Assembly (NCBI RefSeq): GCF_020520425.1 | Contig: NC_079491.1 | Span: 2,046,001-2,110,000 of the forward strand | Direction: 5' to 3' | Source: Spinacia oleracea | Lineage: Eukaryota; Streptophyta; Magnoliopsida; Caryophyllales; Amaranthaceae | DNA length: 64,000 nucleotides | Shown: piece after piece, positions 3,261 to 51,834 of the stretch | Layout of the letters: the number at the start of each line of letters is the position of its first letter | Numbering within the stretch: position 1 is the first letter of the stretch | Notes under the pieces: generated by a model | The model's input: only the letters and a program-made list of their open reading frames with translations | What the model was told of the DNA's origin: nothing | Databases searched by the model: none | Made by a program: the position numbers and the translations under genes

Positions 3261-5585
3261 TAGAGAAGTGGTTGTAAATCCATTGGGTTGCATTTCAGTG
3301 CCGATCATGGGCTTCATCCTTGAGGTAACTGTACTATATTTCATTATTTTGGTTACCTCAAAATTGCAATCTTTTTCTTATCTTGTTGTTCAATAATTTA
3401 TCTGAATTAAATTGGGGACTTGAAATTCGATTATTTGACATTGATATGGAAAAATTGAAGCTTTTTATGCTTTTATTTTTTTATTTTTTTATATATATAA
3501 TAGTAGGCTAGGAATTGGAATTCCACACGGATTAGGTAATTATATGTGTTCCGGGGTTGAAACGATGGAAGGAGCGTCCTTGATATCTTGAGTTCCGGTC
3601 ACGTACGGTGCCTGCAAGATGAACTCCGTGCCAAGGGGGGTCCCCGAGGCGGAGCCTCCGACGCTCAAGTCAGTACAATTGATGTATAAAATGAGGTGTT
3701 TAGGGGAGAGAGAGAGTAGGGTGGCTTCTCTAGGGTTAGAGAATGACCTCCTTTACCTTGCCCCTTGAGGGGTATATATAGTGCCTTGTTGGGCCTTTGA
3801 GGCTTTGTAAGTGATATTGGGCTTGAGTGGGTTTTATTGGCTTTTGGGTTAAAATGGTGGGCCCATTTTAACACCCAACAATATGGTTTAGGAAAAGATC
3901 AAACTGATTGTTCATTAACGATTGTGCATTAAGAACAACACTGATAACTACAATCAAGTTAAGGATAAGTTTTTCAATTTTATTGAACGAGTATTGGCTA
4001 GGCGTAATGATCTCAACTTCTCTTGAGTCTTTATTCTACATTGGTCTTGATCCTGATTTTTATGAATTATGATCACTATTCACTTGACTAGGAAGGTTCA
4101 TAAAGATTTTAGTGGTGCTTCCTTATATATATAAACTCCAATATATACATTTATGTAGACCTCTTTAGAGATTAATCTTTACTGAGAGTGATGGTCATAG
4201 CTCAGTTGGTTAGAGCTTCCATCCGGATTCCAGGTGATCCTGGGGTCGATTCTCATCCCCGCCCTTGTAAAAAAAAGATTAATCTTTAATTTTTTCTTAT
4301 ATAGAGTCCCTTGAATATTTGTTACACTCAACTAAGAAATTTTGACGCCTAGGCCCTAGGCTTCTTGGAAGTTAGAACTATTGAACCGTTGCACGTTCTT
4401 ATCTCATGAAGTAGCGTACTGACTAGACCTGTTCAATGGGCTGGAGGCCCAGGACACGCCCGTATCCAGCCCCTCCATAACCCGGCCCATTGAACAGGTC
4501 GTGTACTGACAGGCAGGAAAAGCCTAACTGTCAGTGTGATGCGTGCGATCTTGCAGAGAGAAAGAAATACTATAAGCCACTTTTGGAGCTTTAAATTAGC
4601 ATGAGTTTATTATTTTCTGTGTATAATTGTAAATCTTTTGGAAATTCGCTGTTTTTTTTTATGTACGGCAAACTAATCATATTCAATATCCAATGTCCTG
4701 GCAGTAGTTGCTACGATTGATGTCTGCAGTTTGGAGTGGTTGTGCCGTTGAGGCGACGGAAAACAGGAAGGTAATTTTGCACACATTGAATTCTCTTTTG
4801 TGTTACTTGAAAAGCATCTGTATATTTTCTTCCACCGTAAGATATTGGTGATCTTTTAAAATGAAACTAGTGCGTGGCCCGGGCGTTGCTCCGGGTTTTA
4901 CTTTTAGTCGGGTTTACGTTTTCGAAAAATGTGCCCAATTTTAAAAGATTGTATTTTACATTTATATGTGAAAATATGACAAACATTGTAGCTAGTTGAG
5001 ATGGTAGGAAGTGAAACTTTTAATCCATGAGGTTCGATGTAGGGAGTCTACGTGACACATATACGTTTTCACAAACGCCTTTTAATATATTAGTATAGAT
5101 TGGTGAAAGTTTTGAATCTTATTTAATAATTTTATATTTTTTTTACATGAAGAATCAACCGGTGCTAATCCGACTCGAGCTGAAAAGGAGGAGGTTGATT
5201 CCCGTTCAATTATGTTGGCAATGTGAGGCAATTTCTATCTTCTTGGTATATCCTTATTGAGTTAATTTCTCTTGATATTGATTATTCTTTAACTTATAAA
5301 ATGTTCAAGTGTGGAAATGTGCAAGCTTCGATTAGATTAACAAAAAATTTGTCACATATTCTAGAATAGGAATAAGATTATAAGTTGGATTTTTCATGTT
5401 TTCATTTTAGTGGAGTGGTGAGACAAGATGAGGAAAATGATGGTGGACTCTTTATCACAATGACTATTGCAAAGTCACAGAAATTCCTTGCAAGGAGAGA
5501 GTTTATAAAACGTGTATCGATGTGTTCCTATGGTACTATGATGTGTTTCGAATCACGATTAAATATTGGGATCAAGTTCTTGTAA
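3261..5585 (+). CDS. Candidate spliced 3' part of an unidentified gene
   Basis: Three coding-looking pieces with consensus splice sites occur on the plus strand. They are about 3254-3324 (acceptor TTTCAACAG, donor GAG|GTAACT; reads GDFREVVVNPLG and on), about 4730-4770 (acceptor GTCTGCAG, donor GAAG|GTAATT; reads FGVVVPLRRRKTG), and a last exon from about 5411 after a TTTTCATTTTAG acceptor to the TAA at 5583-5585 (reads GVVRQDEENDGGL, ending NIGIKFL). I do not recognise the family, and the joins are not all proven to be in phase. A GC-richer insertion and a SINE sit in the introns. The end of this last exon is copied ten times downstream. Confidence 0.25.
3540..3890. other. GC-richer insertion in a putative intron
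   Basis: This stretch is more GC-rich than its surroundings (for example GGGGTCCCCGAGGCGGAGCC at 3639-3658) and holds a TATATATAG motif near 3772. It looks like a transposon or LTR fragment, but no ends or target duplication were identified. Confidence 0.3.
4182..4275 (+). mobile_element. Short tRNA-derived SINE (94 bp)
   Basis: The head carries an RNA polymerase III A box (TAGCTCAGTTGGTTAGAGC) and a B box (GGTCGATTCTC). It ends CCTTGTAAAAAAA. Exact 13-bp target duplications AGATTAATCTTTA flank it (4169-4181 and 4276-4288), so it is a retroposed copy and not a tRNA gene. A relative lies in the opposite direction at 19258-19364. Confidence 0.8.
4424..4502. mobile_element. 79-bp palindromic hAT-type miniature element
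   Basis: It starts TAGACCTGTTCAATGGGC and ends GCCCATTGAACAGGTCGT, a near-complete palindrome. Exact 8-bp duplications GTACTGAC flank it (4416-4423 and 4503-4510), the length typical of hAT insertions. It is the smallest member of a GC-rich family that recurs at 12819, 13356, 18656 and 35173. Confidence 0.75.
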
Positions 5586-6677
5586 ACTAAAGAAATGTTA
5601 TGTTTTGTAACTTCAACTCTTTCTAGGGTTTTTCGATGTGTTCCTATGGTACTATGATGTGTTTCGAATCACGATTAAATATTGGGATCAAGTTCTTGTA
5701 AACTAAAGAAAGGTTATGTTTTGTAACTTCAACTCTTTCTAGGGTTTTTCGATGTGTTCCTATGGTACTATGATGTGTTTCGAATCACGATTAAATATTG
5801 GGATCAAGTTCTTGTAAACTAAAGAAAGGTTATGTTTTGTAACTTCAACTCTTTCTAGGGTTTTTCGATGTGTTCCTATGGTACTATGATGTGTTTCGAA
5901 TCACGATTAAATATTGGGATCAAGTTCTTGTAAACTAAAGAAAGGTTATGTTTTGTAACTTCAACTCTTTCTAGGGTTTTTCGATGTGTTCCTATGGTAC
6001 TATGATGTGTTTCGAATCACGATTAAATATTGGGATCAAGTTCTTGTAAACTAAAGAAAGGTTATGTTTTGTAACTTCAACTCTTTCTAGGGTTTTTCGA
6101 TGTGTTCCTATGGTACTATGATGTGTTTCGAATCACGATTAAATATTGGGATCAAGTTCTTGTAAACTAAAGAAAGGTTATGTTTTGTAACTTCAACTCT
6201 TTCTAGGGTTTTTCGATGTGTTCCTATGGTACTATGATGTGTTTCGAATCACGATTAAATATTGGGATCAAGTTCTTGTAAACTAAAGAAAGGTTATGTT
6301 TTGTAACTTCAACTCTTTCTAGGGTTTTTCGATGTGTTCCTATGGTACTATGATGTGTTTCGAATCACGATTAAATATTGGGATCAAGTTCTTGTAAACT
6401 AAAGAAAGGTTATGTTTTGTAACTTCAACTCTTTCTAGGGTTTTTCGATGTGTTCCTATGGTACTATGATGTGTTTCGAATCACGATTAAATATTGGGAT
6501 CAAGTTCTTGTAAACTAAAGAAAGGTTATGTTTTGTAACTTCAACTCTTTCTAGGGTTTTTCGATGTGTTCCTATGGTACTATGATGTGTTTCGAATCAC
6601 GACTAGATATCGGGATTAAGTTCTTGTAAACTAAAGAAAGGTTATGTTTAGTAACTTCCAACTCTTTCTAGGGTTTT
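5518..6677 (+). repeat. Ten-copy 116-bp tandem array
   Basis: Units begin CGATGTGTTCCTATGGTAC at 5518, 5634, 5750, 5866, 5982, 6098, 6214, 6330, 6446 and 6562, exactly 116 bp apart. The first unit overlaps the last codons and TAA of the candidate exon ending at 5585 and differs from the inner units (AAATGTTA in place of AAAGGTTA). The inner units look identical by eye. The last unit has several changes (ACTAGATATCGGGATTAAG). Variant outer units around uniform inner ones fit unequal crossing-over or replication slippage. Confidence 0.95.
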
Positions 6678-6796
6678 TGTGGCTACAATTTCATGTAGGA
6701 AATGCCAATGGGAAGCTTTGCTCATCTTTGATTAGACATCTCCTTATGTCACCCTTTCTATCTCCTTTTGAATCTGGGGTTCATTCATAAAAAAAC

Positions 6797-16301: not shown

Positions 16302-16454
16302 TGTGTTAACTTCTCTGGATCTGAGAAAAATGAGGTTGTAATTGTAATGTGTTCTAGAAAGTTAAACCACCTAGTCACCTATAATATAGAAGTACACTAC
16401 GATAACTACATGTTACCTTAAAGTCTTAAACAAATTACTTAGTAAATAAAATAA

Positions 16455-18233
16455 CGGATTTTTCATGAAATACCCCCGAATTTTGGCGTAATTCACCAAA
16501 TGCCCCTCGACTTTCAGTAATTCACCAAATGCCCCTCACAAATGACTTAATACCCAAAATACCCTTACTAATGATGCGCCGTTAGTCCTCCGTTAACCTA
16601 ATTTTCAAATTCACCAAATACCCCTATTTTAATACTTATTTCACCAAATACTCTTATTCAGAAACTTAATTCACCAAATACCAATAACTTAAAATTACTC
16701 ATTTTGATGCTCAACGGCTAGTTTTTGTGTTTGAAAATTAGCCGTTGCTTATTGTTTGCTTATAAATACTCTTTTTCTGACTGTTTATTGTAGTTTTCCT
16801 ATTATTTTGTTAATTTCATATCATTTTTGTCATGAGTTTTCTTTCAAAATCATCATCCACACCCAATGAGTCCACATATGTAAGAGTCCCAAATAAATTT
16901 TGTTATCATGGGAGAAACTTTGACATCCGAATATCTGATACAACACTCAATCTGAAGCTCCGGTACAACACTAAAACAGAAAACACTCCTAAAAACACCT
17001 CAAAACGTCGCAACTATTCAAGAAAATAGCTACTTCTTTTGTACCTTATTCTTTATGTGACCAATTAATTATATTTACCACGCAATCGGAAGGTATTCCT
17101 TTTTCAATATGGGAAATATCTTTAACATATGCAAACAGATTAAAAATAAAGCTCTTATTAATTTTATTCTAACGCATATGTTCCAGCTACCTTGGCTTCT
17201 ATTGCTTCCATGCCACATATTTAACGTTAACTCCCTTTTGTCTCCTGTCTCTACTGCCTCTAAACATCTTTCTTCAATCTCCTAACTTTCTCTCAACCTT
17301 ACAGTCGAGGCATAAAGGTTTTCCCACTTTTCTTTTGAGCTAGGTCCTATTGACATGGTCAGATTTATGGACAAATGTCTATTTTTGGATTTGAGGGAAC
17401 AAGAAAAAAAATGAAACTAAGGTATGTTCCAAAGCTCATGAACCAGTGAAAAAACATGAATCTTGGCACAAAGATTTGCCTCCAAACTCAAGATTTTCAC
17501 ATCATGAATCCAAGTTGAAATCGAGGTTGTGATAAAAATGTATGTGTTATTGAACTTGATTTCTTAGTTTCTTTACCATTCGGACAATAAGAAAATTAAG
17601 GTGTTAGCTTTAGATTGAATTACTTCAGCTTCACTTACATAAGATCCCTTTGAAAATGGGGTTTTTGGCCTTTTGCTCAGCTAAAGTGCATTGTCTTTAC
17701 TGGATGAGGCCTGAACTTATTGGATCATAATTGAAACTTACTGAGTGTTGTATCGGAGCCTCGGGTGGAAATTTCCTCCCATAATATTAGAAATTGTTTG
17801 GGACTCTTACATATGTGGATTCATGGGTGTGGATGATGATTTTGAAAGAAAACTCATGACAAAAATGATATGAAATTAACAAAACAATAGAAAAACTACA
17901 ATAAATAGTCAGAAAAGGGGTTTTTATAAGCAAACAATAAGCAACGGCTAATTTTCAAACATAAAACTAGCCGCTGAGCATCAAAATGGGTAATTTTAAG
18001 TTATGTGTATTTGGTGAATTAAGTTTCAGAATAGGGGTATTATATGAAATAAGTAATAAAATAGGGGTATTTGGTGAATTTAAAAATTAGGCTAACGGAG
18101 GACTAACGGCGCGTCATTAGTAAGGGTATTTTGGGTATTAAGTCATTTGTGAGGGGCATTTGGTGAATTTCTGAAAGTCGAGGGGCATTTGGTGAATTAC
18201 GCCATAATTCGGGGGTATTTCATGAAAAATCCG
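16455..18233. mobile_element. Mutator-type fold-back element, copy 1 (1779 bp)
   Basis: The ends are CGGATTTTTCATGAAATACC and its inverse GTATTTCATGAAAAATCCG. Inverted similarity continues for roughly 400 bp from each end: the text at 16830-16880 recurs inverted at about 17796-17860. Exact 9-bp duplications ATAAAATAA flank it (16446-16454 and 18234-18242), the Mutator signature. It contains a small frame at 16832-17029 (65 residues) but no transposase. A second copy with its own different 9-bp duplication is at 50020-51801. Confidence 0.92.
16832..17029 (+). other. Small ORF carried by the Mutator-type element, GRF-finger-like remnant
   Basis: 65 residues starting MSFLSKSSSTPNE. The central FCYHGRNFDIRISDTTLN has the look of a plant GRF-type zinc finger start (Cys, then HGR, then a TTLN stretch), but the later Cys and aromatic positions are lost or frameshifted. 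The copy at 50397-50594 keeps the frame with only two amino-acid changes by eye. It may be a fragment of a host gene captured by the element. Expression and function are unknown. The family reading is inference. Confidence 0.35.
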
Positions 18234-18655
18234 ATAAAATAAAGTAACAACTCACTAGTACGGAGTACGAGGGGCGGAGAGGTCCATCTCATAAATTTAT
18301 TTAGCAAATACATCTCACCCCACAAAAGGACGAAATAGGGTAAAGACATTAAAACAAATGTCATGTTTAAAGAACGGATGCCATTTTACAAAAACAGATG
18401 TCATTTTTCAAAAAATTGTTTTTGTCCTTTAGTGTTTGTCTTTAGCCTATTCTGTCGTTTTATTGGCCGATATATTTTTGTAAAAACATATTTAACATGA
18501 GAATATACTTCCTCGTATATTATAGGTTTCATGTTCGTCGACCCCCCACTCCCCATTTGTAGTTATTTCAAGACTCAAGAGTGTGGATTCATGATTTAAA
18601 TCTTGATATATCAATAATACGGGTACGTTTACTAAACCATGAAATTAGATCCGGT

Positions 18656-32694: not shown

Positions 32695-33614
32695 CTTTCA
32701 ATCATTGGCGGACCCAGTTAAGGGCCAGGGGGCACGTGCCATCCCCGGAAGAAAAAAAAAATTAAAAAAACTGAAATTTTGATATGTGACAACCTTTGAA
32801 TAACGCTTATATATTAAATTTGCCTGAAAGTGATCAATAGTGCAATTTGTCACAGTGGTCAATGAAGAAGGTTGAATTATGCTTCAGTGTCCCATTTTGT
32901 CCGGGATCGATTCCTACATTGGGCAGCTTTGTATATTTTTTTGGGTAATTCCCATTAGTACACTCCTACTATTGACTTTTGCCAATAGTACACTCACTTC
33001 TAATTATATTGCCAATGGTACACTTAAACTATTTAGTTTCTTATTATCCTTGCTATTCTCATTGAGTAGCTTAACCATAGTTAATTATTAGGATTAAATA
33101 TAAAAAGATAAAAATAAATAACTTCATTATTTGAAATGCCGCATCACAAAAATAAAATGGCACCTGAATCCTTCTTTTAAAATTGCTTGTACAAACCGAA
33201 AATAGTGCGCCTAAATACTTTAACAAAGTTGTAAACAAAATTCATAGATCAATTGCAGCTAGGAATTTCTCATAGTTGATATTACAACCAGCAAATAGAA
33301 ATGCAGTGCTCCAGACTTTTTGCCTGTCTAATAGCTACTGGAATCAACGTCTAGTTGTAACTGTTGTTTGACGTCTTTATTGACAGGAGAAGAGTAAATA
33401 AAATTTTCACAATTCATCGGAGAGATAAACAAACAAATAAAAGACTATAATTTCATTGGCAGATGTTTAGATACTAACCAAACAAATGTTTCTAAAAAAA
33501 ACACTTAATTTCAATCTCATTGACAACATCTAACAAAAAAAAACTACAAATATGTGTTAGTCATTAATCTGTATAACTACTTGTAAAAATAATTGTCTCA
33601 TAAAATTGTCAAAA

Positions 33615-34698
33615 TCAGTTTTGTGGTTGGGATAGTGAAGCTTGAGTGCTTGACTGAGAGTTGGGTTGTCGTGATTCTCTTGTTGGTGTCTTCCCCCTCC
33701 TAGAACCAGTAGATGATGTTCTTGCTGCAATGTCTGCTGCTCTGGCTATTGATGCTGCAACTTCAGCAATTTTTGCTGCTTTCGCTGCCTTTTCAGCAGC
33801 TTTAGCCGCCTTTTCAGCATCTTTTGCCGCCTTTGCTGCATTTGATTGATCTCTAACTCTAGGATTTTTTGTCACAATTGGCTCATCTGTTTCTCTCATT
33901 TCCTTTCCAGTCAGACCTCCCTTACAAGTCCTAGAATTGTGCCCAAAACAACCACACCTCTGACATTTCACAGTTTTTGATCTTTTCCCTGGCTGCTCTT
34001 CTCCTTCTTCTCTCCTTCTGTTTCTGCTAGGTCTTCCAACTCCCCTTTTCATTCTGGGTGGCTTGATTGATGGTAAGTTGTCATACACTGGCCATTGATC
34101 TCTGTTAGGCACCGGATTAATGCTAAAGTTGTAGATTCTCCTGTAAGTTTTTACAGAAAACCAAGAGCTAACAAATTTGTGTGGATCCAACTTTGCATCA
34201 ATCATTGCCCTTATGGCATGCCTACATGGGACACCAGAAATTTGCCATGATCCACAAGAACAAATTTTGTCATTTAAACTTAAAGGGAACTGAGATTTAC
34301 CCTCGTGTATCTCATACTCTCCCGGCCTAGACATGTATGCCCTACAACTACTAGCTTCCTTGCCAATTTGTTTAAGCATCTTCACAATTTTAGGGCAAGG
34401 TCCATCATCATCCCAGTCCATTGAATTATGATATCTTGTTGATAATCTAACCATATATACCCTTTTAATTCCTATAATTTTCAGATAAAATCCTAAATTA
34501 ATAAGATATAAAACAATAATGTAAACGCATATAATAAATCAGTCCATCGACACCTATCAAAGGTCTGCAACCACCCAGAAAACCCTTCCACTGAGCACTA
34601 AATGAAATGAATATATTGCTGAACAAAAGCTCCTTTGGCAAGCTTTCAGATTTTTTTTCCTGAATTTGGGACTTTATCTCAAGCATAATTAAATTCAC
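33615..34698 (-). pseudogene. MULE transposase, internally deleted
   Basis: Two pieces remain. The upstream frame, 34498-34698, ends with GFLGGCRPLIGVDG, the text that in MULE transposases carries the first catalytic Asp, and then runs into unrelated residues. The downstream frame, 33615-34454 (279 residues), has the C-terminal SWIM zinc finger (CSCGSWQ, then GVPCRHAI), a CCHC knuckle (CQRCGCFGHNSRTC) and an Ala/Lys-rich tail built on AEKAAKAA. The rest of the DDE catalytic domain between them is missing. Full-length relatives are usually over 600 residues. The copy cannot transpose by itself. Confidence 0.8.
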
Positions 34699-35172
34699 TT
34701 ACCTAAGAGATACTGTTGCAGAATTATGGTATAATTATCAGACCATTAGCGGCTGGACATCAAGGCTCGGAGAGTGAATGCAACTGAACAAGTCTTAGAG
34801 TTAGAGGTTAACTAATATTACTATTCCTAAGTCTTAGTGGTTTAGTTAGCCTAGATTAAAGTTATGTAGGCAGTAGTATTATTAAATAGGATTCATTAGA
34901 GTTCAATACCTAATTGTTTTAGGATTGTCGATCTTGCGTCAACTCTTGTACTATAAATATGAGCATTGCTCAATCAATACAACTCAAGCTTTTATACACA
35001 TACCGGAAACAATGTCCTGACAATCTTATAGTTCCATGGTTTTATAACACAATTCAAAACCGATTGGCATACCCATGTTAACCCAGAGTAGCTAATACAA
35101 GAGCAAACAATAAACTGAATGAAAATATGGAGTTGGCAAGAGACAATCAGATGGATGTTGGCTACTGTTAAG

Positions 35173-35564
35173 TAGACCTGGTTATTGGACAGGGTAGTCC
35201 AATGGATATAGGATTAGGGTCAAGTTAATAGGGCTTTTATTTGGCAGGGCTCTTATTGGACAGGGCCTTTATTGGACAGGGTCATTATAGGTTCAAACTT
35301 ATACTACAATTATTTTGAAAATAAAAATAGTAATGATACAAAAAATTACGTGCATAGCTTCGTATTTACTTGTACTTGCACATGGCTCTTTTGTTTTTCA
35401 TTTTTCATTGCTCGTTTATTGACCCGCCCACTAATGACCCGCTATTGACCCGCGACCCGCTTTTGACCCGCCTATTATCGACCCTCTAAAAATGACCCTT
35501 TCAATACCCGACCCTCTTTTGACCCGCACCGACCCTGACCCGCCCCGCCCGATAACCAGGTCTA
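35173..35564. mobile_element. GC-rich hAT-type element (392 bp) inside the MULE
   Basis: Termini TAGACCTGGTTATTGGACAG and CCCGATAACCAGGTCTA. Exact 8-bp duplications CTGTTAAG lie at 35165-35172 and 35565-35572. Larger relative of the 79-bp element at 4424. The interior is rich in TTATTGGACAGGG and TGACCCGC repeats. Confidence 0.85.
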
Positions 35565-37140
35565 CTGTTAAGATAAGAGTTAGACTAGTCTTAAACTACA
35601 AATGTTAGTATAATCCTAATATTCTACTATTACGTTATTAGTATGGTATTAGAATGTGGCCTTTGCAAAAATTGTTACTGATTATTAATGGTTTATTATA
35701 TGCGTTTACATTATTGTTACATCAGTCATTCATCATTCGAGTATCTATTTTGCTAATTCCATGATTTAAAATCCTTTTCTTAATGTGTTCCTTTTATAAG
35801 GAGCTTTAGTAATAATCAAAAGTGCCATAAATGGAATTAGCAAAATTACCTTCAAGCAACATCAGTAGTATCTTGCTTGAGACATGATTCATATATCATA
35901 TGGAGTATTTGTTATCAACGCTTAAACAGAGTGAAATTGCAAAACCGAATTAACAACCGGGAATCAAGTTACAAATTGAAATTGATCACATATATCAAGT
36001 TACAATTTTTCTAGGTTTTTAGATGACAGGGGAAGAAGAGAGGAGTACAGGAAGGAAGAAAACGTGTCTAGGTTTCTCGTTCATCAACTTTTTAGGTTTT
36101 TATTTGTTTTTTATTTTCTAATAATTAACTATGGTTAAGCTACTTAATGAAAATAGTAAGGATAATAAGAAACTAAATAGTTTAAGTGTACCATTGCCAA
36201 TATAATTAGAAGTGACTGTACTATTGGCAAAAGTCAATAGTAGGAGTGTACTAATCAATTGTAATTTTTTTTACTTATCAAAGCACTTTTTCTTTCTTTC
36301 ACCTCTTTAATTAGGCTATATTTTTTTTCTTCTACAAAAAGTCCACTTCGATAACAATAAATAATTTTCTTTACCTACTATGGAGTATTCTATCACATTA
36401 ATCATCTTCATTTTTGTACATAATTTTATAGGTTTTTAGTGATACATTTACAAAAAAAAAGTTCTCAATCAATTTGAACTTTGTGTTATCTAGAATCAAC
36501 TATACGAATTTAACATCATAAAAAAAATCTAAGTGTACCCACTTTTTTAGTTTTATACAACAAATTATTATATTGTCTTTTTATATACTACGGAGTAGCA
36601 ACTATATTTTTTCTCTTTAAAAAAACCACTTCGATGAGAATAAATACTTTTCTTTAACTACTACGGGATATTCTATCACAATAGCTACTTCATTTTTTTA
36701 CATTATTTTTGAAAAAAATTCATTTTTAGTGATACATTTACAAAAAGATTCTCAATCTATTTGAACTTTGTGATGTCTAGAATCAACTATACGAATTTAA
36801 CACCATAAAAAAAGTAGGTGAGTTACCCCCTTTTTTTATTTTATACAAAAATTTATTATAATGTATTTTTATATACGAAATAACAATTATTCGTATAGCT
36901 TTTGTGCCACCCCTGACTTGGGATCCTGGGTCCGCCACTGCTTTCAATGAACAACAAGATGCTATATGAGATTATTCATTATTGGACGATAAAATGGGTT
37001 TTGTTATTTTGTTACATGCATAATTGCATATTCTTATTCTACGATTCTTTGGTTTGTGCTTGTCCAACAAAACCACCTCCCTAATTATTGAGGATTTCAC
37101 AGTTATCCTATATGATAGAATATCGTACGTAGTAGAGTTA

Positions 37141-37814: not shown

Positions 37815-38191
37815 GGAAATTTGGTGAAACACTACCTTTAAGTTTGGTGGTTTTGTGAATTGCTACCTTTTAAAAAGGAAATTACATTTTACTACCTTAT
37901 AAGTTTGGTTTGTTTGACTAACACTACCATTTGCCGTTTTTTGTTAATGTTTTACGTCTTTGGACTCCACTACAACGGTTATTTAATATGGCAAATGCAC
38001 AAAATGACAAATGAACGGAGATATTTAAAAGAATAGAAGAAATACATGACGGAAAACATTAACGAAAAACGTCAAATGGTAGTGTTAGTCAAACAAACCA
38101 AACTTATAAGGTAGTTAAATTAAAAAAAGTTTTTATAAGGTAGCAATTCACAAAACCACCAAACTTAAAGGTAGTGTTTCACAAAATTTCC
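37815..38191. mobile_element. MITE with long (about 50 bp) inverted repeats
   Basis: The left arm GGAAATTTGGTGAAACACTA ... GTGAATTGCTACC and the right arm GGTAGCAATTCACAAAACC ... GTGTTTCACAAAATTTCC are inverted copies. No convincing target duplication. Confidence 0.7.
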
Positions 38192-39001
38192 TTAATATCA
38201 CTATAACATATTCACCCAATTACCCTTAATCAACTCATGAAGTACAATTATTTTCAATCGGTAAAAGGTACAATCGATTGCATGTAAAGCTACGTGCAAC
38301 TATATCGTTTTGTATTTTGTATCATTCAAAAAACATATTTTAGTTTAAAATCACACATTTACTGATTAAAGGCACATTTTAAAGACAAAAAATACACATG
38401 CTTTAAAGGAACACATTGTTAAATGCAAGATAATCACTAAAATAAGAAGAAATTTAACTGAAAAAATTTATGCGCTTGTATACTATAAAAATATGCTACC
38501 ACGACACTTCTACATACTCCGTACTTCCTCTGTTCTTTTTTAAATAACACAATTATTTAGGCACGTTTTTCAATGCACGACTTCAAACATCAATATCTCC
38601 AATTGTGGATACGAAAAAATTATAAAAAATTGATATTTAAAAAATATTTATTGACACAAATTTAATAAGACCCCACACGACTATGTTTTTTCTTAAAAAT
38701 AAACCACAGAACAAAGTCAAATGAACTTATGTGAATAGTATCCAAAATCCAATTGTATCATATAAATAAAAACGAGTAAGTATATCAAACATGCTAAATA
38801 TGATAACTTTTTCATCACAATACTCTCTTAAGTTTTGTCTCCTTGAAGGTCGAATGTTTTCAGGATCATCTTTCGTGACACTTTATTTGAAATAATAGCC
38901 CTAATATAATCAGGACACCAATATGAGATTAAATTATCACAAATAAACATTTTTACGCGTGGAGATTCATTTCATAAACCAAATAAAGTGAATAAGTTAT
39001 A

Positions 39002-49600: not shown

Positions 49601-50019
49601 GCGGGGGATAGAGAGAGTGTGTGTGTGTGCGGTGAAAGAGAGACGGAGATCGAAGAAGATCGAGTGGATCGAAGGAGAAAACTGAACGAAGGAGAGAGAA
49701 AACGGGAGGAAGGGAGGAAGGGTTAGGGTTTAGTTGAGAGGATCAGCAAGGTAAACAACAAAATAGGGGTATTTTGGTATTTTGGCAAGTGGACACGAAA
49801 AGTTAATTTACCTATTTAACCTCAGCTCTTGGCTTATATAATAGAGATACTGCTTAATTTGAAAAACGTACTGGCTCATTAGGGTCATTTTTCTTATTTA
49901 CCTGGAAAAAAAGAAACAGCTTGGATTGTTTACTTATTCGATGTCACATAAGCAGTATTCTACATTTTATACCTTGTGTTATTTCGTTTGACGGTTTCTG
50001 TTATTTAATAAAAAATATA

Positions 50020-51801
50020 CGGATTTTTCATGAAATACCCCCGAATTTTGGCGTAATTCACCAAATGCCCCTCGACTTTCAGAAATTCACCAAATGCCCC
50101 TCACAAATGACTTAATACCCAAAATACCCTTACTAATGATGCGCCGTTAGTCCTCCGTTAACCTAATTTTCAAATTCACCAAATACCCCTATTTTAATAC
50201 TTATTTCACCAAATACCCTTATTCAGAAACTTAATTCACCAAATACCAATAACTTAAAATTACTCATTTTGATGCTCAACGGCTAGTTTTTGTGTTTGAA
50301 AATTAGCCGTTGCTTATTGTTTGCTTATAAATACTCTTTTTCAGACGGTTTATTGTAGTTTTCCTATTATTTTGTTAATTTCATATCATTTTTGTCATGA
50401 GTTTTCTTTCAAAATCATCATCCACACCCAATGAGTCCACATATGTAAGAGTCCCAAATAAATTTTGTTATCATGGGAGAAAATTTGACATCCGAATATC
50501 TGATACAACACTCAATCTGAAGCTCCGGTACAACACTAAAACAGAAAACACTCCTAAAAACACCTCAAAACGTCGCAACTCTTCAAGAAAATAGCTACTT
50601 CTTTTGTACCTTATTCTTTATGTGACCAATTAATTATATTTACCACGCAATCGGAAGGTATTCCTTTTTCAATATGGGAAATATCTTTAACATATGCAAA
50701 CAGATTAAAAATAAAGCTCTTATTAATTTTATTCTAACGCATATGTTCCAGCTACCTCGGCTTCTATTGCTTCCATGCCACATATTTAACGTTAACTCCC
50801 TTTTGTCTCTTGTCTCTACTGCCTCCAAACATCTTTCTTCAATCTCCTAACTTTCTCTCAACCTTACAGTCGAGGCATAAAGGTTTTCCCACTTTTCTTT
50901 TGAGCTAGGTCCTATTGACATGGTCAGATTTATGGACAAATGTCTATTTTTGGATTTGAGGGAACAAGAAAAAAAAATGAAACTAAGGTATGTTCCAAAG
51001 CTCATGAACCAGTGAAAAAACATGAATCTTGGCACAAAGATTTGCCTCCAAACTCAAGATTTTCACATCATGAATCCAAGTTGAAATCGAGGTTGTGATA
51101 AAAATGTATGTGTTATTGAACTTGATTTCTTAGTTTCTTTACCATTCGGACAATAAGAAAATTAAGGTGTTAGCTTTAGATTGAATTACTTCAGCTTCAC
51201 TTACATAAGATCCCTTTGAAAATGGAGTTTTTTGGCCTTTTGCTCAGCTAAAGTACATTGTCTTTACTGGATGAGGCCTGAACTTATTGGATCATAATTG
51301 AAACTTACTGAGTGTTGTATCGGAGCCTCAGATGGAAATTTCCTCCCATAATATTAGAAATTGTTTGGGACTCTTACATATGTGGATTCATGGGTGTGGA
51401 TGATGATTTTGAAAGAAAACTCATGACAAAAATGATATGAAATTAACAAAACAATAGAAAAACTACAATAAATAGTCAGAAAAGGGGTTTTTATAAGCAA
51501 ACAATAAGCAACGGCTAATTTTCAAACATAAAAACTAGCCGCTGAGCATCAAAATGGGTAATTTTAAGTTATGTGTATTTGGTGAATTAAGTTTCAGAAT
51601 AGGGGTATTATATGAAATAAGTAATAAAATAGGGGTATTTGGTGAATTTAAAAATTAGGCTAACGGAGGAATAACGGCGCGTCATTAGTAAGGGTATTTT
51701 GGGTATTAAGTCATTTGTGAGGGGCATTTGGTGAATTTCTGAAAGTCGAGGGGCATTTGGTGAATTACGCCATAATTCGGGGGTATTTCGTGAAAAATCC
51801 G
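50020..51801. mobile_element. Mutator-type fold-back element, copy 2 (1782 bp)
   Basis: Nearly identical to 16455-18233 from end to end, with the same CGGATTTTTCATG termini. Exact 9-bp duplications AAAAATATA flank it (50011-50019 and 51802-51810). They differ from those of copy 1, so the two are separate insertions. The carried frame, 50397-50594, is preserved. Confidence 0.92.
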
Positions 51802-51834
51802 AAAAATATATATATAATCATGAACAAGTTGGGT

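Follow-up and report, generated by a model that had tools for sequence, protein, structure and literature searches.

A stretch of 64,000 nucleotides from Spinacia oleracea (contig NC_079491.1, positions 2,046,001 to 2,110,000; hereafter, the window) contains, at positions 16455-18233, what is very probably a Mutator-like DNA transposon (MULE), complete and belonging to a family that is young, non-autonomous, and high in copy number. The element is 1779 bp in length. Its family is new but of an already known kind, and some members of the larger group to which it belongs carry gene fragments. No published report of the family was found in the literature searched, subscription papers and repeat databases lying outside that search.

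Structure and integration of the element

Two copies of the element are present in the window. Copy 1 (positions 16455-18233; subfamily A) lies between two occurrences of the 9-mer ATAAAATAA (16446-16454 and 18234-18242), and copy 2 (positions 50020-51801, 1782 bp; subfamily B) between two occurrences of AAAAATATA (50011-50019 and 51802-51810). Both are complete and surrounded by an exact 9-bp duplication of their own. Over 1782 alignment columns they agree at 1764 and have gaps at 3 (99.0% identical), and the alignment terminates at the element boundaries, the flanks being different. These coordinates agree exactly with those in a first-pass annotation of the window, which had described two copies of about 1.78 kb with the same ends and separate target duplications.

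The arms carry the ends CGGATTTTTCATGAAATACCCCC, and in copy 1 the terminal inverted repeats (TIRs) comprise a left arm of 495 bp (16455-16949, forward) and a right arm of 492 bp (17742-18233, reverse) that are 91.7% identical, so that inverted similarity does extend over hundreds of base pairs from each end as initially noticed. This similarity resolves into blocks of 274, 143, and 59 nt, and the arm length lies within the range (typically 100-500 bp) that characterizes the long TIRs of the MULE superfamily. Between the arms is a unique middle of 792 bp (16950-17741) in which no domain is recognized. A subterminal motif, TTCACCAAATRCC, is present five times in the left arm (16492-16682, forward; one site mismatched) at successive steps of 29, 89, 30, and 30 bp, and four times in the right arm (18006-18196, reverse; one site mismatched). 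When one mismatch is permitted, the window has 19 such sites, all of them within the two copies, compared to 0.27 expected. Long arms with a motif array would suit a foldback element of the FB/FARE type, but the array covers only the outer ~230 bp. The Arabidopsis FARE foldback elements also combine long arms, subterminal repeats, a 9-bp duplication, and a link to Mutator. The left arm also carries a TATA-like box, TATAAATA (16761-16768, forward), located 71 bp upstream of the ATG of the 65-codon frame described below, which is a putative promoter element and was read at the matching arm position 307 in another copy (L005).

No transposase was recognized inside the element when 11 of the 33 listed frames of at least 30 residues (a 65-residue frame and ten of 44-74 residues) were put to Pfam, in agreement with the initial statement that none is present; together with the multiple mobile copies described below, this result identifies the element as non-autonomous. 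A search of the window against Rfam gave no match at the gathering thresholds. A 17-mer from the arm has two matches in a collection of viral contigs, with further similarity over at most 21 bp, and these were judged to be due to chance.

Target-site duplications were read for 61 copies, namely the two window copies, 39 other best matches to copy 1, and 20 pairs of exact ends, the last being taken from 26 further such pairs (counted by eye) among the first 100 listed end places, all of which are on contig 1. All of these intact copies have exact 9-bp duplications (41/41 best matches and 20/20 exact-end pairs), a length within the 9-11 bp typical of the MULE superfamily. In comparison, when flanks were paired across different copies, the two 9-mers agreed in only 14 of 3660 cases. 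The targets have the form T.......A, with T at the first position in 54 and A at the ninth in 53 of the 61 sites, and their AT content is 94.9% vs 70.2% in the flanks. Because a number of copies have inserted into the same repeats as others, the empty site of one copy can be found in the flanks of another. We compared seven of 39 listed flank-to-flank matches, which share some loci and so are not all independent, and six of these paralogous empty sites have a single identical 9-mer and match at 57-61 of 61 bases. The remaining comparison shows one difference within the 9-mer and 44 matches in 61 bases. The proposal of Mutator-type integration is upheld by the duplications and by these empty sites with a single target, and the absence of further copies with 9-bp duplications, which was to have refuted it, did not materialize.

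Copy number, age and source of mobility

The genome searched has 894,210,420 bases in 242 contigs, of which C1 to C6 are 115-189 Mb each. In a search with the whole element, the best 40 of 2797 candidates are all full length at 98-100% identity, giving at least 40 full-length copies; this number is a floor, window copy 2 being absent from the 40 that were scored. A 27-mer from the internal middle (at most two mismatches) occurs at 118 + 111 = 229 places, and its reversed control at none, so that ~229 copies are estimated. Copies with their own duplications are spread over contigs C1 to C6. The earlier observation of two recent copies is hence correct but understated. The terminal 23-mer, at the same tolerance, has 1636 + 1624 = 3,260 matches (control, 0), which at two ends per element would correspond to about 1,600 elements with shared ends, most of them different from the 1.78-kb form.

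Fifty-six long copies fall into two subfamilies, 26 in A and 30 in B, that are separated by linked sites. Their mean distance to the consensus of their own subfamily is 0.29% for B and 0.14% for A, the latter being biased because these copies were picked as the closest to copy 1. For 15 contig-1 copies, all from subfamily B, the pairwise difference has a mean of 0.59% and a minimum of 0.06%, and there are zero substitutions between L005 on contig 1 and L010 on contig 6, and likewise between L028 and L029. Assuming a plant substitution rate of 7e-9 per site and year, these copies date back no more than a few hundred thousand years. The claim of recent movement is thus borne out by substitution-free copies on different contigs, by the empty sites, and by the number of copies; since unchanged copies occur on different chromosomes, the family is likely to be still moving or to have stopped very recently. 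The two arms of a single copy differ by ~8%, and much of this divergence predates the spread of the family because many of the differences are common to both window copies.

Most likely, a MULE transposase supplied from another locus of the genome would bind the 495-bp arms, with the motif array as a candidate site. The element would then be excised, or copied during repair, and inserted at an AT-rich 9-bp T.......A target, which would be duplicated in the process. We infer a MULE as the supplier from the duplication length and the architecture because no matching transposase gene was found. Specifically, the best 150 of 1960 candidates for the MULE transposase domain (PF10551) were scored, and from groups of comparable frame length seven representatives were taken and read as 8-kb stretches; none of these seven loci has similarity to the arms (best E 0.27). 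A MULE with matching ends, for which the initial annotation had recommended a search, is therefore lacking among them, and this result weighs against the assignment to Mutator. So do three other points. Duplications of 9 bp alone are not unique to Mutator; the 61 copies were selected for closeness to copy 1 or for their exact ends, a choice biased toward young and intact copies; and in three further complete relatives the duplication is exact in one (L076), with 8 of 9 and 7 of 9 bases agreeing in the others (L066 and L072). A decayed MULE is present in the window itself at positions 32954-36255 (open reading frame 33618-34538, reverse), having 162-bp inverted ends that are 92.6% identical and, from a transposase, a SWIM zinc-finger portion (PF04434, E 7e-8), and was rejected as the partner because its ends differ from those of the element.

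Origin of the 65-codon frame and of the middle

Copy 1 has an open frame of 65 codons (16832-17029, forward) that runs from the arm into the unique middle, and the corresponding frame of copy 2 (50397-50594, forward) differs from it at two residues. Within the frame is a 25-bp tandem direct repeat (16925-16974, forward), the units of which are 76% alike and the length of which is not a multiple of three. The right arm has the same frame start, which is frameshifted, and GTAAGT at the point where the arms part, near the position of the 25-bp repeat in the left arm. Right arms carry the first ~21 codons and the TATA-like box again, as do L068, a derivative of 1.47 kb, and L076, a relative of 3 kb, although not every one of these starts is open. 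Given this recurrence, the start of the frame belongs to the arm and not to a recent capture. The first part of the frame, as shared arm with a TATA-like box, resembles the beginning of a gene, promoter included, from an autonomous ancestor, and its second half is most likely passenger sequence into which the frame runs through the 25-bp tandem repeat.

These features raise the possibility, which we regard as tentative, that the frame is what survives of the beginning of a second, inward-read gene of the autonomous parent, placed as mudrB is in maize MuDR and perhaps of GRF type, and that it was kept because arm promoter and 5' end travel in the inverted repeat. Its arguments are the recurrence of frame start and TATA-like box in the left and right arms as well as in relatives whose middles differ, together with the donor-like GTAAGT of the right arm. 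The first-pass annotation saw a resemblance to the start of a GRF zinc finger and, by eye, the C-Y-x-G start of the frame is indeed similar, but Pfam detects no GRF domain (PF06839) in the 65 residues at E values up to 10. With a profile built from six GRF loci of this genome, the frame scores 0.2 bits, a value equalled in 733 of 5000 shuffled versions and in 29 of the 540 other frames of the window, so the resemblance does not rise above chance. The first 40 residues are equalled by 509 of 5000 shuffles and 23 of 540 window frames, and a right-arm stretch does somewhat better (295 of 5000 and 8 of 540), L076 being scoreless. A search of the PDB with the frame returned nucleoporins as the best match (E 0.32) and no GRF protein. 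As the profile is small (six sequences) and the frame would span only half a domain, there may be a weak true relation.

GRF genes are themselves numerous in the genome. The best 150 of 485 candidates for PF06839 all exceed the cut-off and include large groups that score identically, and five MULE-GRF pairs are no more than 15 kb apart among the best 150 GRF and best 150 MULE places. Four of these pairs of GRF and MULE transposase domains are convergent, at separations of 3-12.4 kb (for example, C4:63237285 with C4:63240264, and C5:49038801 with C5:49045334). Rotation of the contigs, however, gives 0.8 pairs on average and as many as 6 in 500 rotations, the six GRF loci that were read have no arm similarity beyond stretches of at most 22 bp with E values no lower than 0.17, and the autonomous parent was not found among the seven MULE loci. 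These results support a repetition of GRF genes here and not a link between them and the element. It is a rather doubtful conjecture that MULEs in this genome possess a second gene, of GRF zinc-ribbon type, that is oriented inward from the opposite arm (compare mudrB of maize), with its promoter and first codons inside the long inverted repeat so that non-autonomous derivatives spread the gene start. If true, the GRF-type genes, in at least 150 places, would be largely transposon accessories rather than host genes.

An alternative that we consider unlikely is that the middle and the frame were captured from an ordinary host gene, making the element itself a Pack-MULE, as was implied by the initial description of a gene-fragment-capturing family. 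Relatives with similar ends do capture genes. Five elements of 1.30-1.37 kb with exact ends (L043-L047) share only their outer 82-122 bp with the 1.78-kb family (85-94% identity) and all five have exact 9-bp duplications. In two of these (L044 and L047) there is the same 204-residue frame, containing an ankyrin repeat (PF00023) above the Pfam cut-off. Searching with the ankyrin stretch of L044 yields 19 loci, of which ten (including L044 and L047) match at 97-100% and eight match partially at 87-88%. The nineteenth, elsewhere on the contig that holds L044 and L047, at C1:56714755-56715250 (L098), is 91% identical and is a single open frame with ~159 bp of coding sequence that is missing from the element copy. 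This locus is probably the host parent, the element carrying an internally deleted fragment; intron loss was rejected as an account of the capture, since in the likely parent the stretch that the element lacks is open and coding. L044 and L047 thus have the attributes of Pack-MULEs, and the idea of gene-fragment capture holds for these ~1.34-kb relatives. For the 1.78-kb element it seems unlikely, given that none of its 11 tested frames has a domain, that the start of the frame sits in the arms and not in the middle, and that no parent locus is present among the best 40 of 2797 candidates, all of which are copies of the element.

We view as very improbable the notion that the element encodes a selected small protein or micro-peptide. 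The frame is present in both window copies, as first described, and retains 65 residues in 44 of the 56 long copies, but there are versions of 49 (seven copies), 75 (four), and 48 (one) residues, so that 12 of 56 have another length. Alignment across the 56 copies, a check recommended at the outset, gives 10 distinct non-synonymous and 5 synonymous changes vs 451 and 134 possible, and a density of changes per bp that is about equal within the frame (0.077) and outside it (0.086). Nothing points to purifying selection on the basis of these fifteen changes, a small number, and the description of the frame as conserved does not hold in a functional sense. The selected-peptide reading was rejected on these grounds; persistence of the frame reflects the young age of the copies, which alone is able to preserve it, and most likely the frame is without function in these copies. 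Finally, a single segmental duplication or an assembly artefact, for which one might cite the presence of only two copies in the window, is almost certainly wrong because the alignment of the pair ends at the element boundaries with different flanks, copies on C1 to C6 have their own duplications, and empty sites exist.

Relatives with shared ends, known systems and other features

In a search for large members of the group, 20 unpaired ends on contig 1 were read out of 38 counted by eye among the 100 listed end places. Four belong to the 1.47-kb derivative class and one to a 1.78-kb copy, and some of the remaining loci also show both ends. The largest complete member with similar ends that was read is L072 (C1:62568179 onward), at 4.9 kb; L076 is an element of 3.06 kb with, by eye, a nested CACTA-type insertion. 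No transposase frame was detected at these loci, Pfam being applied to ten selected frames from seven of them and L072 being inspected by eye only. Downstream of the end at L075 are pieces of an AAA-ATPase (FtsH-like by eye; PF00004 above the cut-off), and the other end was not found within ~5.7 kb; a capture of this AAA/FtsH-like sequence is not proven. A frame resembling a cysteine-rich secreted peptide lies downstream of a single unpaired end at L064.

In the maize MuDR/Mu family, non-autonomous members share ends and differ in their middles, as they do here. The spinach family is unlike the maize one in that its target is strongly AT-rich with the form T.......A and in that no MURA-type gene is tied to its ends. 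According to Ferguson and Jiang (2012, PMC3310237), the maize arms hold promoters for inward genes, a role that the arms would share here. The same paper describes long-TIR plant MULEs as having a 9-11 bp duplication and TIRs of 100-500 bp, to which binding sites and promoters are attributed. The present family resembles those MULEs and Pack-MULEs in its 9-bp duplication, long TIRs, absence of its own transposase, amplified copies, and gene-fragment relatives. PM-ZIBP, a tomato Pack-MULE with SLMULE18 ends, is reported there to have 14 copies, compared to the ~229 found here (PMC3310237); moreover, the TIRs here differ in being single rather than tandem, the arm here extends into an open frame, and the captured gene is seen here in relatives and not in the 1.78-kb element. 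Tm1 Mutator/Foldback elements of root-knot nematodes are described (PMC3169594) as low copy and with no evidence of recent transposition. On that description, both systems have non-autonomous groups, which occur alongside coding ones in Tm1 and for which no coding member was found here, and the spinach family is different in being high copy and very young.

The family can readily supply insertion markers and natural mutations in a vegetable crop. In addition, its ends define a larger group in the genome, at least one kind of which took up and multiplied a gene fragment with a nameable likely parent.

Two other repeats were observed in the window. An inverted-repeat, MITE-like stretch with the ends GGAAATTT...AAATTTCC was seen by eye at ~37830-38210 and is not listed by the self-comparison at E 1e-4. 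A 116-bp tandem repeat is present in ten copies, with a 99% match, at positions 5517-6678.
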